A stretch of DNA of 22,627 nucleotides, taken from assembly GCF_000003605.2 (NCBI RefSeq), contig NW_003108581.1, positions 573,461 to 596,087 on the forward strand, read 5' to 3'. Under the pieces are notes generated by a model. The model did no database searches. It was not told where the DNA came from and saw only the letters and a list, made by a program, of their open reading frames with translations. Shown one piece after another: positions 2,779 to 22,627 of the stretch. The DNA comes from Saccoglossus kowalevskii. Lineage: Eukaryota; Hemichordata; Enteropneusta; Harrimaniidae. A program made the translations under genes and the position numbers. The first letter of the stretch is position 1, and each line of letters starts with the position of its first letter.

Positions 2779-3535
2779 GCAGGCCTTACACTGTGGCAGT
2801 TTCTCGTGAAGTGGTGCGTTATCGCGTGACTTCGTAGACATTTTATTTTATCGCGCCCTGTTGTTTATATGATTAAAAGGTTATAGCAAAGGTGAATCCG
2901 AAATACACGTTAAATAAAAAGAAATACCCGCGTTGCCAGTCTGTTTATTGGTGGTCTGATAACAAAGCTACACCGCCAACACTTATGATAGGTGTGAATT
3001 TCACAATGAGAGAAAATCATTATGTCCTCTTTTGTCCATCGCGGATATCAACAATAAAAGTGTCATTTTATTTTTTGCTATATGTTCTGTATTATGAACG
3101 CTATAATGCAGAATATATGTGAACACATTCCTCTACTACCGCATGTCCACAGAACGGTGTTGTTTGGTTCAGTAAGTTATTTAGTGGAGGTTGTGTGCAG
3201 CATGGAACTCCGTGTGTGTAACTAACTGACTCGACAGTGAATGACTTGTTATAACAAACGATAACGTGTTCAAGGACGTCACGGCTCAAGACGATGAAGT
3301 TAAAGTGCTCATGTAATTATCAAATGCCTGATGCCTGACTGGGTCATATTTGACCGTCCATTTATAAAAACTGAACATTTGACAAATAAACACAGGTTAG
3401 TCAGAATGATTGGAACCCAACTCTACTGAATTCTGTTCAGTAACAGTAACACTAATGGGGAACACAGTTTTACAATTATTGCCGAAAATACACGTTATTG
3501 TACTCGGATTGTGGTTATACTATTTTCTGTTTTAG
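2779..3535. other. No gene recognised; possible 3' UTR and intergenic DNA
   Basis: It starts as the possible 3' UTR of the Cys-rich candidate. The remaining short open frames on both strands have no recognisable motif or convincing splice sites. A short direct duplication (GCCTGATGCCTGA) lies near 3326. Confidence 0.4.
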
Positions 3536-3693
3536 AGGGTTGGCCAATGTCCAGAACGAGCATCGCGTCATGGCTTGATTTTGAAAACCAGGAACATGCC
3601 ATAGACCTCTTTATATCTTATCGCGAGAACATGCGTATACCCGCCAGTAGTCTTGTGAAACATGTAGAAGAATGTTTTAAGGTAGAAGCCTAG
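3536..3693 (+). pseudogene. Exon-like ORF interrupted by a TTAA-type transposon
   Basis: The acceptor TATTTTCTGTTTTAG opens a frame with coding-like composition, including IASWLDFENQEHAIDLFISY and IPASSLVKHVEECF. The frame then runs into the inverted repeat of the inserted element, which supplies VEA and a TAG stop. Removing the element and one TTAA copy in thought lets the frame continue for 13 further codons (KKKISDYLALNYP) to a TAA at 4251-4253. This suggests that the element landed in the last coding exon of a gene. The element also provides an AATAAA at 3728-3733, so a shorter transcript could still be made. The protein family is not recognised; it could also be old non-genic DNA. Confidence 0.4.
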
Positions 3694-4213: not shown

Positions 4214-5626
4214 GAAAAAAATCTCAGATTACCTTGCCCTAAATTACCCTTAATCTGGAACTAATTTCGAGTTTAATAATTATGTATATAACTTTGCAAA
4301 ATCTTACCAGCATGAATCACTCGATCTAATGTAACGGCAGACACAATGGATGGGCGGCGCTTAATAATGATTTAGTGTTGTATTCAGAGAATTCCGATGT
4401 TACCCTAGAACTGAATTGGTAACATCACGGCGCGTTGACCACATCAAACACTCTAGTGCTGTGTCCCATGAGTGACAACCTTATTTGATTGTGGAAGACT
4501 ACTGGCACCAAGGGCATCGACAAATGCTGCAGAGAGAAGAAAAACAGTCCAGAAGTCGTGAAGTAAGTCGCCAAGCAAACATTTCCGACTGAACTTGTTA
4601 ATTCCCTCAGATAGTTTGTAGGTAAGTGGTGGACCATTAGGAGGGCGATGGCAAATATTTTTGTTCCCTTAACTTAGTTTTGTGCTAATGTTTGTTTTAC
4701 GTGATGAACTTGTAATTTGTTTTCCACTATTATGTTGAAGATTTTCAGTTGTGAGATTTAGGCGTAAAAATGTTGTTTTCTGTTATCGAATTTTTCCCGT
4801 GCATTATTTTAATTCTGCCATCTTCTACACAGTTCCAAATGGACAACAGCTGAACACTAATAATGTTGCTGAAAAAAGTCCGAATAAGAAAAGATTGGTT
4901 GTTTTTATTTCTTGCGTACAAATTCATCTGAAAACAAGATAAAATGGCTTATTATATTATATTGTTTGTTACTCAGCTAACAACCCTTCATTGTTGTTGC
5001 GCGACCAAAGTACACCGTTCACTATCTACCGTACGTGCCGAAACCACTGATATGAATTAGTCAGTTGCAAATTTGGCATAATTTATGACACTTATTTATA
5101 AATACAGGTAGTTCAGTTAAGAAGAACATCATAAAATGTAAGTGGGCATGTTAAAAAAACGTTTATACATTTTACACGAGTTTTGCTTGCAATGGATCAA
5201 TACAAATAAAAAAAATAAAACTTAAATAACAATAAATCTGTGACGCGCACGCTGACCTGCGATTACTTCAAATGAACTTAACCTTCCAAAAAAGTTTTAC
5301 CCTCATAATAGTTCAACGACCCCAAATAAGGCCCTACGAATACTCCCAGAGTGCAACTTTAAGGTCGTTCGAAGGAGGGCATTTGACTAATACAAACAGA
5401 AACAAAATATTACCAAACTATGTTAATTTCAAGCTGTTATATACCAGTAATTGTGCTATTGGACAACAACACACAAACAGACACATTGTTAAAGTCGAGA
5501 AAATTTGATAATTCGTTTTAATGGTATCCTACTACATTAATTAATACAATATTTGACTGTTTGTAGTATCCAAGATACCAAGAATAGAAGATCACGTATA
5601 TTGTTAATGTTCTCATTTATTTTAAA
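4214..5626. other. Intergenic stretch with weak exon candidates only
   Basis: It holds a 9-bp inverted repeat (GATGTTACC/GGTAACATC, 4396-4426, 13-base loop) and an acceptor-like site ATCTTCTACACAG followed by a frame ending NKKRLVVFISCVQIHLKTR (4833-4942, +). On the minus strand there is a pyrimidine-rich acceptor at 5387 opening a 17-codon frame that stops at 5334. None of these has a matching partner exon or a recognised domain. The last hundred bases should include the promoter and 5' UTR of the DED gene, but no clear TATA box is seen. Confidence 0.3.
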
Positions 5627-6266
5627 ATGGCTGCTGCTTGTGGATCATCTACTTCTGATGACAACAATATTGACAATTTCCAATCGTTCATGGTGGAAAT
5701 ATCAGGCGAAATCGGTGAAGGTAGGTTCCTGAAATAATTTAGTAACAAATCCCTATCTATTGCGTTCTTTCTGGTCATCATCGTATATCGTTACGTCATG
5801 CGTACTACACATTAAAAAACATGAAAATTCTTTCATTTGGACAATATTGTTTTCAAGGTATTGTTGCTGTATCATAATGCTTCTTCCCTCTATAGTATGT
5901 GTGTTCTCAAATTCACCTTTCACGTACGCTGCAAACATTGACAACTCGTATTAAAATACATACCCTACTATATGAATGTTTACTATGAATACCGGGATCA
6001 GACCTCCGCGTCAATAGATACATGCATGCTGCACCACTCACCACAAATACATTTATAATATTTCAGAAGATTTAAAGAAAATGGTTGAATACTGTGCCGA
6101 CAAATACCTACAAAAACGCGAGAGGGAAAAAATATTGAAGGAAGACAATGCTTACTTATTACTTCAGAAGTTAAAGGAAGCCGGAAAATTGAGTCTCCGG
6201 GGCTATTGTAGTTTTAAGTTTGGAGATGTAATAAATCCTACGTATTCATATCAGTTCCACGACTGA
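5627..6266 (+). CDS. DED protein, short form (exon 1 + proximal last exon, domain truncated)
   Basis: The acceptor TTATAATATTTCAG at 6066 also joins exon 1 in phase 1 and gives about 97 residues. The proximal exon begins EDLKKMVEYCADKYLQK and continues through KLKEAGKLS. About 23 of 42 residues are identical to the distal exon, with one gap. After GKLS the similarity stops abruptly: the tail LRGYCSFKFGDVINPTYSYQ ends at a TGA, with no helix 5, helix 6 or RxDL motif. No other frame restores these. The product should therefore be an incomplete DED, either a regulatory decoy or a decayed duplicate. A downstream poly(A) signal means both exons can be used as alternative last exons. Confidence 0.55.
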
Positions 6267-7055
6267 AATACTGACTAGAGAACTGAGAAGGGCCGTTTGG
6301 AAAGAGAACAGCATCTCTTACGCTCAACATTTAACTCGTACTTTATATATCGTAATATCACGCGCCAATTACTGATTTTATATAGCTTGTATTGAAATAA
6401 AATATATGCATGTCACGTGACTTGAAGATGTAGTAGAGGTGTTTCGGAAGTACAATTCAACTTTTTCATAGAAATGCTTACTGTTTCGGTACTGACTGAC
6501 GGTATTGGTTACATTGTTTTGGTCACCGAAGACAGCTACAATCGGTACTGTTTGGCAAGTGAGTCTTAGAATGGTCATGTCACAAAGAGCTGAAGAATAC
6601 ATACGAAATTATCACAACAAAGATAAACATTATTAAATAAAAATAGGAAATAAAATTGTATCCGAAAACTACGTTGGGGGAGATTTATTCGCCACTTGGT
6701 AACAGCAATCTGGACTTGCGCGACTTTGTATGGCTACGACTACGACTACGACAATGACTGAGGGTTTGTGCAGTAACAAAGTGTAATGTGTAACTTAATG
6801 TATGCATACTGAACTAATTTTATTTTCGCAGGTGAATTTTTGTCAATGGTAGACTTGTGTGCCGATAAACATATACAGAAAGCACAAAGGGAAAAGATTA
6901 GACGAGATGGTCCTTACAAACTACTGGAAAAACTAAAAGAAACGGGAAAACTGAGTAAAACTGACCCGACACTGTTGATTGTTCTATTAAAGAAAAGCGG
7001 GCGCAGTGATCTAGCAGAGAGTGTAGAGAAAAGATTTAAAGAAGGGTTTGAGTGA
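5627..7055 (+). CDS. DED-only protein, long form (exon 1 + distal last exon)
   Basis: Exon 1 (5627-5720) encodes 31 residues from MAAACGSSTSDDN and ends at GAAG|GTAGGT in phase 1. An in-frame TAG 42 bases upstream supports this start. Splicing to the acceptor TTTTATTTTCGCAG at 6831 joins the frame exactly and gives about 105 residues. Exon 1 supplies helix 1 (NFQSFMVEISGEIGE); the distal exon (6832-7055) supplies the rest, with GEFLSMVDLCADKHIQK (helix 2-3), KLLEKLKETGKLS, TLLIVLLKKSGRSDLAESVE and a short KRFKEGFE tail. GRSDL fits the RxDL motif of DED helix 6, and the helix-2 Glu completes the DED charge triad. DED proteins assemble death-receptor and caspase-8-type complexes through homotypic contacts. 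A single-DED protein of this size resembles PEA-15-type regulators in architecture, not necessarily in descent. CARD or another death-fold domain is the main alternative. Confidence 0.7.
6396..6401 (+). terminator. Poly(A) signal for the short DED transcript
   Basis: An AATAAA lies 130 bases after the stop of the proximal last exon and before the distal exon. Polyadenylation here would give the short form, and skipping it the long form. Confidence 0.5.
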
Positions 7056-7140
7056 AACAGAGAACTGCGTAATCGATACAGTGTATAAGATGATCGGCAA
7101 ACATTTGGGTGGATGTGATTTGGTCTAACCCACCTGACGT

Positions 7141-7146
7141 AATAAA
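7141..7146 (+). terminator. Poly(A) signal for the long DED transcript
   Basis: An AATAAA lies 86 bases after the stop of the distal last exon and would give a compact 3' UTR. Confidence 0.55.
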
Positions 7147-9940: not shown

Positions 9941-10347
9941 CGGTGTGATATGGTCGCAAAGAGAGAAACTGTGTAGGCATGCAGTCGTACTTTCGATATC
10001 GGATTTGTCAATTCAAATCGGCCACGAAGGTCATCGTGACTGAATATGTTTATGACTATTATTCCGTTTTTTTCGTAAAATGTAGTCTCTGTTGATAATG
10101 TCAGCATTATATCACCATGAACAGGCCCGTAGCCAGCACTTTTGAATAGGAGTTTCGAAAAAAATAATATAATTGATGTGAAATGTGGGAATTTTTGAAT
10201 AAAAGCGAATTTTATGGTGTCTTAGAGCTTTGACATTTTTATGTTCTCAGTTTTACATTGAAGTGGCTTACTTTGTGCTACATTGTTAAGTTATTACGCA
10301 CCAGGGTTTGAAGATCCATCCTCCTTGGATGCAACTTTGCTAAAGTA
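9941..10347. other. Unassigned DNA with a transposon-end-like motif, up to the gap
   Basis: AACAGGCCCGTAGCCAGCAC near 10120 resembles a motif I have seen repeatedly in invertebrate interspersed repeats. A partner end was not found, and the assembly gap may hide it. No gene is seen. Confidence 0.25.
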
Positions 10348-10881
10348 NNNNNNNNNNNNNNNNNNNNNNNNNNNNNNNNNNNNNNNNNNNNNNNNNNNNN
10401 NNNNNNNNNNNNNNNNNNNNNNNNNNNNNNNNNNNNNNNNNNNNNNNNNNNNNNNNNNNNNNNNNNNNNNNNNNNNNNNNNNNNNNNNNNNNNNNNNNNN
10501 NNNNNNNNNNNNNNNNNNNNNNNNNNNNNNNNNNNNNNNNNNNNNNNNNNNNNNNNNNNNNNNNNNNNNNNNNNNNNNNNNNNNNNNNNNNNNNNNNNNN
10601 NNNNNNNNNNNNNNNNNNNNNNNNNNNNNNNNNNNNNNNNNNNNNNNNNNNNNNNNNNNNNNNNNNNNNNNNNNNNNNNNNNNNNNNNNNNNNNNNNNNN
10701 NNNNNNNNNNNNNNNNNNNNNNNNNNNNNNNNNNNNNNNNNNNNNNNNNNNNNNNNNNNNNNNNNNNNNNNNNNNNNNNNNNNNNNNNNNNNNNNNNNNN
10801 NNNNNNNNNNNNNNNNNNNNNNNNNNNNNNNNNNNNNNNNNNNNNNNNNNNNNNNNNNNNNNNNNNNNNNNNNNNNNNNNN
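10348..10881. other. Assembly gap (534 N)
   Basis: The run of N means that any open frame crossing it is meaningless. Confidence 1.
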
Positions 10882-14249: not shown

Positions 14250-14715
14250 TACGCTATGATGATGGTACTCTCACTCTACAATGCTTGGACAATTTTGCCT
14301 TTTTAAATAACATTGATTATAATGAAAGAACAGAATGTCTTCATGCCAAAATTTAGAACAGCTGATCATATCTTTGTACTTAAACAGTTACTGACTAAAT
14401 ATTTAAAAAGTAAAAGCAAATCTTTGCACGATTTATTGACTTTAATAAATGCTTTCTATTCAATTTGGCATCAAGGTTTACTTTACAAACTTTGTGAAAA
14501 CAACATCTCTGGTAAATTCTACAAAAATAGGGCTTACACTAACTTTTGCAGTAAACAGAGGCAGGGAGATAACCTGATCCCACTTTTATTCAATCTATAT
14601 GTTAAAAACATCAAATGAATTCTCACAAAATAACCCATTTAATCAACCAACCAACTATCATGTCTACTGTATGCAAATGATCTATTACTACTTTCAGAAT
14701 CGTGTCGAATATGTT
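14250..14715 (+). mobile_element. CR1/L2-like LINE reverse-transcriptase remnant, catalytically dead
   Basis: The readable frame carries FRTADHIFVLKQLLTKYL, INAFYSIWHQGLLYKL, NNISGKFY and RQGDNLIPLLFNLYVKNI, in the order expected of the jockey/CR1/L2 type of non-LTR reverse transcriptase. Motif A, normally FxDxxxAFD, has lost both aspartates (the second is Tyr). Three stops later, in the same frame, YAND replaces YADD at 14670-14681 in LLYANDLLLLSES. Endonuclease, 5' part and 3' end are missing. Fixed by decay; a fossil. Confidence 0.75.
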
Positions 14716-17539: not shown

Positions 17540-17990
17540 CAACTTTTCAACTGACATTGGCAGATTTTACATGAGATGATGCACGACATATAACAATTCT
17601 TCATCCATACGATGCCGTTGTCATTACTTCTCATTGAGTTAGGTAATAAGGAAGCTCTTGACAATGTATCAGATGTGACTAGTTCTTTCCCTGGTTTGTA
17701 TCTCAGTGATGTGTCATATTCGCTGCAGTCTTGCTGGTGCTGCTGCAAGTGGTTTCTTCATGATGGATTCCAACATTTTGTGATCAGACTCAACATGGAT
17801 CGTCTTATCAAAAGTGTACTGGGTTAATATCTCCAAACCAAACATTACGGCCAATATCTTCTTTTCAATATGAGCATATCTGGTCTCACTTTCAGTCATT
17901 GATCAAGATGCATAAGCTACTGGTCTGTTTTCCTATAGAAATACAGCTCCTAGGTCAGATTTTGATGCATCAAAACTAACAGTAACTGGT
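17540..17990 (-). pseudogene. Gypsy RNase H remnant
   Basis: DASKSDLGAVFL, then ENRPVAYAS, TESETRYAHIEKKILAVMFG, DHKMLESIMKKP and YKPGKELVTSDTLSRA follow the usual Gypsy RNase H order, including the E of the catalytic set (HIEKK) and the terminal D of SDTLSRA. Two in-frame stops interrupt it. Confidence 0.75.
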
Positions 17991-22085: not shown

Positions 22086-22380
22086 CTGTAATATAAAATC
22101 ATTGACACAGTAAGATCATACACAAATTCTACTTTCAACAGGCTACAATTGGTTGTTCATCTAACATAATTTTGCGATTTATTGATAATGATTATTTGTT
22201 ATCTAACCTATTGATGATTGAAGTCTGCACAGGCGGCCCACTTGATATATTTGAATGAATGAACATACTGCCTTCAATTGAACTGTGGTTCATGGATTCT
22301 TCATTTAAGAATATATTCACATGTCTACAATAGAAAAAGAAGTAAAAAAGTGAATTTATTTGACTTTGATATTATACACA
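22086..22380 (-). other. Intron upstream of the sulfotransferase last exon
   Basis: It is A+T-rich, with no second exon or consensus minus-strand donor seen before the window ends. It continues into the 30-bp repeat. Confidence 0.5.
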
Positions 22381-22627
22381 CATTAGATGAGATCATACTG
22401 AACGAGATCACATTGGTTTAAATCGAAATGGACGAGATCACATTGGATGAGATCGAAATGAACGAGATCACATTGGATGGGCTCAAACTGAACGAGATCA
22501 CATTGGTTAAAATCGAAATGAACGAGATCACATTCGATGAGATCAAACTGAACGAGATCACATTGGTTGAAATCGAAATGAACGAGATCACATTGGATGA
22601 GATCAAACTTAACGAAATAACATTGGA
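22381..22627. repeat. 30-bp tandem repeat, at least eight copies, cut by the window end
   Basis: The unit is AACGAGATCACATTGGATGA followed by GATCGAAATG, with exact 30-base spacing. Alternate units carry GAAATG or AAACTG, giving a 60-bp higher-order pattern. Within a unit the two halves (ACGAGATCACATTG, ATGAGATCGAAATG) resemble each other, so it may have grown from a 15-bp unit. The plus strand is open from an ATG at 22428 to the window end and would encode pentapeptides such as NEITL DEIEM; the minus strand is also open over about 190 bases. It lies in the presumed intron of the sulfotransferase. Confidence 0.92.

Follow-up and report, generated by a model that had tools for sequence, protein, structure and literature searches.

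The window analysed here is the whole stretch of 22,627 nucleotides of the Saccoglossus kowalevskii genome (contig NW_003108581.1, 573461-596087, reaching the contig end), and the coordinates below are window positions unless a contig is named. On its + strand lies a small DED gene with one first exon and two homologous copies of a second exon, referred to as proximal and distal, with the following features, where the helix numbering of the exons is presumed to follow the FADD structure.

5627-5720, + strand: exon 1, ending in phase 1 and coding for the start Met, a leader containing Ser, Asp and Asn, and DED helix 1
5721-5726, + strand: 5' splice site GTAGGT, ranking above 99.7% of the 1388 GT sites in the window
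6067-6266, + strand: proximal copy of exon 2, with its DED part homologous with the distal copy up to 6194; stop at 6264-6266
6195-6263, + strand: proximal tail of 23 residues, unrelated to the distal copy by DNA and profile comparison
6396-6401, + strand: AATAAA 3' of the proximal copy (weak evidence)
6427-6629, + strand: old dispersed repeat in the interval between the exon-2 copies, segments of which recur at 5 other places (70-76% identity)
6832-7055, + strand: distal copy of exon 2, with the remainder of the DED and a GFE end; stop at 7053-7055
6834-6836, + strand: Glu aligned with FADD E19 (charge triad), from alignment
7002-7013, + strand: RSDL, the RxDL motif of helix 6, from alignment
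7141-7146, + strand: AATAAA 3' of the distal copy (weak evidence)

Elsewhere in the window, a tandem array with a period of 120 (10.6 copies, 90% matches) occupies 627-1894, and another with a 30-base unit (8.3 copies) runs from 22379 to 22627, up to the contig end. On the - strand, a 369-residue open frame at 21047-22156 matches galactose-3-O-sulfotransferase (Pfam PF06990, 164.4 bits). Moreover two retrotransposon remnants are seen, one with RT RNase H (17714-17902, - strand, E 3.1e-10) and one with a weak reverse transcriptase match below the cut-off (14307-14618, + strand), while a run of N lies at about 10345-10880, with 534 N in the window overall.

Exon 1 comprises 94 bases from the ATG at 5627 to 5720, and since a TAG lies in frame upstream at 5585, its Met is a plausible start. 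The donor reads AAG followed by GTAGGT, with the site at 5721, and both acceptors downstream are in phase 1: the distal one (TTTTCGCAG followed by GTG, at 6832) ranks above 99.3% of the 1022 AG sites in the window, and the proximal one (TTTCAG followed by AAG, at 6067) is weaker and ranks above 88.6% of them, all ranks being taken among the GT or AG sites of the window with splice-site frequency tables. The sequence-only reading had called each acceptor good; its description of one phase-1 exon followed by two homologous in-phase exons, each with its own stop, agrees with what we find at 6067 and 6832. Phase 1 is kept in both joins, which would yield 97 residues from exon 1 and the proximal copy and 105 residues from exon 1 and the distal copy. 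As the best donor score in the proximal exon is -1.63 versus 5.90 for the donor of exon 1, the proximal exon has no usable donor and therefore would be terminal if included. One shared exon followed by two homologous exons of the same phase, each with a stop of its own, is in fact the arrangement of tandem duplicated terminal exons.

The poly(A) signals are another matter. Each copy had been credited with its own AATAAA, and the hexamers are indeed present at 6396 and 7141, but the proximal ORF also contains one at 6230 and the interval between the exons two more, at 6636 and 6649, and with 30 copies on the + strand of the window (about 1.4 per kb) AATAAA stands at background frequency, so that the copies at 6396 and 7141 carry little weight. 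The exon pair and the DED call are not products of chance, while these signals may be.

The DED call itself, already made in the sequence-only reading, is upheld by two profile tests. Against Pfam DED (PF01335), the 105-residue product scores 41.2 bits with a curated cut-off of 35.9, a margin of about 5 bits only. In the second test, exon 1 was joined to the distal exon and scored with a profile built from 18 DEDs of its own genome that were assumed to be complete, and this join (45.1 bits) ranks first of 1118 phase-1 joins; the 1117 decoys, built from GT sites on both strands with any donor score, at least 15 open codons before the site and no N, have a mean of 32.9, an SD of 1.2 and a maximum of 40.5 bits, and the distal exon alone has 32.8. 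On the proximal exon the gain from exon 1 is a similar 13.0 bits (14.8 to 27.8) with the same profile. The product of exon 1 and the proximal exon stays below the Pfam cut-off with 22.3 bits and covers positions 1-53 of the 82 of the model; the earlier claim that only the distal exon completes the domain is supported by this score and by the charge triad described below. Alone, without helix 1, the distal exon reaches 28.4 bits (E 8.8e-4) in a Pfam DED scan of its own genome, and is the weakest of the 67 matches there.

A direct search of the PDB with the 105-residue product gave no DED, its one match being at chance level (E 0.41). When 16 exon-2 sequences, 15 of them from relatives, were combined into a profile, the PDB chains matched included DEDs of FADD (with the best E, 5.7e-11), of PEA-15, of caspase-8 and of c-FLIP; the profile also matches some PPR and troponin chains, one PPR chain with E 1.3e-10 through short repeated matches. 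From these matches to solved DEDs, the distal product would be expected to adopt a six-helix death fold. The E/D-RxDL charge triad is present in it, with the Glu at 6834-6836 aligned to FADD E19 and RSDL at 7002-7013. According to the passages of PMC4558505 cited here, F25 belongs to the patch through which FADD self-associates; the distal exon carries Asp at the aligned position, so that the FADD-like hydrophobic patch is absent as judged at F25 alone; as the consensus of the exon-2 profile at this position is Arg, Phe is not the norm in the Saccoglossus DED family either. The assembly surface of the distal product may thus differ from that of FADD.

The two copies of exon 2 are homologous beyond doubt of chance. 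In 41 aligned residues 24 are identical, where about 23 of 42 had been noted from the letters, and the BLOSUM score of 117 lies far above 2000 shuffles (mean 27, SD 5, maximum 61). At the DNA level, homology extends over 6080-6194 versus 6845-6956, ending directly past the GKLS codons, and none of 500 shuffles reaches the score; in five comparisons covering the introns, the 3' flanks and exon 1, no alignment rises above shuffles (P 0.34-0.93). Since the exons are alignable but their surroundings are not, the duplication is old. In a tree of 48 exon-2 peptides, the proximal and distal copies are sisters (support 96), C1570b joins them next (support 75), and five sequences group together at 100; the protein branch of the proximal copy is 0.50 versus 0.14 for the distal one. 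In agreement with the sequence-only reading, the two copies are the product of a tandem exon duplication.

The locus belongs to a large family. A Pfam DED scan of the Saccoglossus genome (572 Mb, 4830 contigs) gave 67 matches, while 14 control genomes gave 0. A survey of gene structure, covering loci L001-L043 and the window, that is 48 of the 67 DED places by hand count with 19 left out, gave 55 distinct DED stretches: 27 are split, 20 have helix 1 in frame, 6 are partial and 2 are neither. In each of the 27 split stretches exon 2 opens behind a phase-1 AG; two of these stretches are those of the window and 25 lie elsewhere, and 17 of the 27 reach the end of the model with a stop within 15 residues beyond it. 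Outside the window, 17 of the 25 split exons have an exon-1 candidate scoring at least 7 with no exon 2 in between (hand count); the other 8 have none, some owing to a short flank or weak scores. Several of these candidates resemble exon 1 here in having a Met and a brief Ser/acidic leader ahead of helix 1. Thus DED genes of two exons are common in the Saccoglossus genome, and a single exon 1 followed by two copies of exon 2 is an unusual layout in its surveyed DED loci.

The 105-residue product itself matches 9 places of the genome, 3 in the window (exon 1 and both copies of exon 2) and the others on contigs C1570, C1737 (two), C601, C359 and C4071; C1570b, C1737a, C1737b and C359 were compared by sequence, with C601 and C4071 left out. 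C1570b, C1737a and C1737b retain an exon with a similar end, RxDL..V..(R/K)(F/Y)..GFD, followed in two of the three by a stop within 19 residues past the GFD end; the third continues beyond it, with a good donor. The position of FADD F25 holds Asp in C1570b and C1737a and Gly in C1737b. A subfamily of the distal exon with L044, L045 and L046 has Asp or Gly at this position and a GFD or GFE end after the DED. Among viral contigs, 48 pattern matches were found, with no relative among them.

Two further loci of the survey deserve mention. At C9 360909/363612 (L017, C9:357500-366800, 3410-3604 and 6113-6295) two DED exon-2 copies occur with only one good exon-1 candidate (donor 360230) upstream of both, possibly another instance of a shared first exon; the case is not clean because donor-like sites, seen by eye and unscored, follow the DED in both copies. 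On C129 (184000-212000, L030-L032) there is a cluster of DED stretches mostly with helix 1 in frame, one of which (196127/196061) is interrupted by a stop.

Past position 6194 the proximal copy departs from the distal one. Between 6195 and 6831, no helices 5-6 were detected in the three + frames above chance: the tail at 6195-6294 compared with the distal tail gives P of 0.62 and 0.88 under two scorings and the whole 6195-6831 gives 0.66, and a profile of four C-terminal peptides run over the three + frames found nothing significant (best E 0.48). Frameshifted helices 5-6 in the proximal tail were considered and rejected, the DNA being at shuffle level against the distal tail, and so was an origin of this tail from the repeat, whose matches at about 6427-6629 fall outside it. 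As the earlier part of the domain is still well preserved, the remainder, helices 5-6, was probably lost in a single event and not by slow decay. A normal DED fold of the proximal product without helices 5-6 and RxDL seems unlikely.

Has the proximal exon nevertheless been a protein-coding exon? Over 41 codons, proximal and distal copies differ with pS 0.77 and pN 0.24. In a branch model without a clock, a neutral proximal branch is not rejected (lnL -1044.83 versus -1044.32, 2dlnL about 1). On the assumption that both exons belong to one gene and are equally old, the same neutral time was imposed on them; this clock-constrained model, based on 41 codons whose synonymous sites are saturated, gives a w_prox of 0.23 and rejects w = 1 with 2dlnL 9.4 (lnL -1049.00 versus -1044.32). 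The likelihood profile of the clock model allows w_prox from below 0.1 to about 0.6, and therefore a recent loss of constraint over up to about half of the branch is possible. The open frame alone is little proof, as in neutral simulation it stays free of stops in 7 to 42% of runs. Given the clock assumption, these estimates indicate that protein-level selection acted on the proximal exon during much of its history.

How should the locus then be understood? The reading we prefer, to which we give about an even chance, takes the distal exon as the source of the working DED protein and the proximal exon as an old, once-constrained and shortened copy that is now mostly bypassed. Exon 1, with the leader and helix 1, would be spliced in phase 1 to the distal exon with helices 2-6, giving the 105-residue DED protein, which by its likeness to DED families would most likely bind other DEDs homotypically, as an adaptor or a decoy of FADD/caspase-8-type assemblies. 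The proximal exon would be an old tandem copy of exon 2, constrained for much of its life, that then lost helices 5-6; its weaker acceptor suggests that it is mostly bypassed today, and if it were used, the transcript would end early and give a truncated, probably non-assembling product. Against such a bypassed relic speak a passable proximal acceptor and a frame open over the 41 aligned codons, and continued selection explains these as well as a recent loss does.

Regulated alternative terminal exons are a serious rival, which we regard as quite possible though less likely. The sequence-only reading had favoured this view, with poly(A) choice deciding which DED would be made; its anatomy of the locus is borne out, and its regulatory part stands as a hypothesis. 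Here the choice of acceptor and poly(A) site would switch between the full DED from the distal exon and helices 1-4 with the 23-residue tail from the proximal one, and the proximal form would be null or dominant-negative, lowering the amount of the active form. Two copies of matching phase after a single exon 1, the protein-level constraint under the clock, the terminal character of the proximal exon for want of a donor, the 13.0 bits that exon 1 lends to it too, the AATAAA at 6396, and the precedents of mutually exclusive tandem terminal exons in pip and of 3' variable regions in PGRP-LC, as given in the cited passages of PMC9013439, are all in its favour, but the proximal copy has a truncated domain, a faster protein branch and a weaker acceptor, and AATAAA is at background frequency. 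A more definite form of it, namely a self-regulating DED-only gene of immunity or cell death, whose distal product would assemble and whose proximal product would be a decoy of helices 1-4 sharing helix 1, the splice or poly(A) choice being a built-in off switch, is in our judgement doubtful.

That two tandem genes are present, each with its own exon 1, that of the distal gene being missed or located elsewhere, is improbable, even though exon 2 frequently has its own exon 1 elsewhere (the 17 of 25 above, for example C3952 31565 and 32781). At the thresholds applied, the search for helix-1 exons gave no candidate on the + strand of 6267-6831 and a weak one on the - strand, and exon 1 has no DNA similarity to the interval between the exon-2 copies. 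An ATG frame of 28 codons at 6474-6558 does end at a phase-1 donor of good quality (6559, score 5.2), but it lies inside the dispersed repeat, the helix-1 scan passed it over and the 12 best joins of the join test do not include it; we take it to be chance. It is very improbable that both exon-2 copies enter one transcript with the proximal copy as an internal poison or cassette exon, as both have phase-1 acceptors but the proximal one carries an in-frame stop and has no good donor. A chance resemblance with no gene, which the shortness of both exons might suggest, is scarcely credible, being contradicted by the Pfam score over the cut-off, the shuffles, the join control and the gene structure of the family.

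Should both exons be used, the choice of 3' end in one small gene would control the assembly of a death fold, which makes a simple and testable switch. If they are not both used, the locus would illustrate how a domain exon was copied, kept under selection and then shortened in a DED-rich genome.

Finally, the gene can be set beside known systems. DED-only genes and tandem terminal exons are both known kinds and it is their combination that is unusual; among the literature matches listed, in their titles and abstract openings, no DED gene with alternative terminal exons was found. According to the cited passages of PMC9013439, Drosophila pip has eight tandemly repeated homologous terminal exon clusters in UTRs with mutually exclusive use, and 3' variable regions are reported for PGRP-LC, so that the likeness is in groups of alternative 3' exons within one gene. 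Unlike these genes with their reported mutually exclusive use, the Saccoglossus gene has two exons that may be used in this way, one of them truncated.

With the DEDs of FADD, PEA-15 and caspase-8 (PF01335), the likeness is in the match of the exon-2 profile and in the aligned Glu and RxDL. On the side of differences, a phase-1 intron interrupts the Saccoglossus DED behind helix 1, the 105-residue product has no caspase or death domain, and unlike in FADD, the F25 position is Asp or Gly in the distal exon and its three relatives given above. Another comparison is with the short c-FLIP isoforms and viral FLIPs, which are likewise small DED proteins without caspase activity. The short forms of c-FLIP arise from alternative 3' ends, and both they and the viral FLIPs carry two DEDs, whereas the Saccoglossus product has a single DED and its alternative exon would cut the domain itself.
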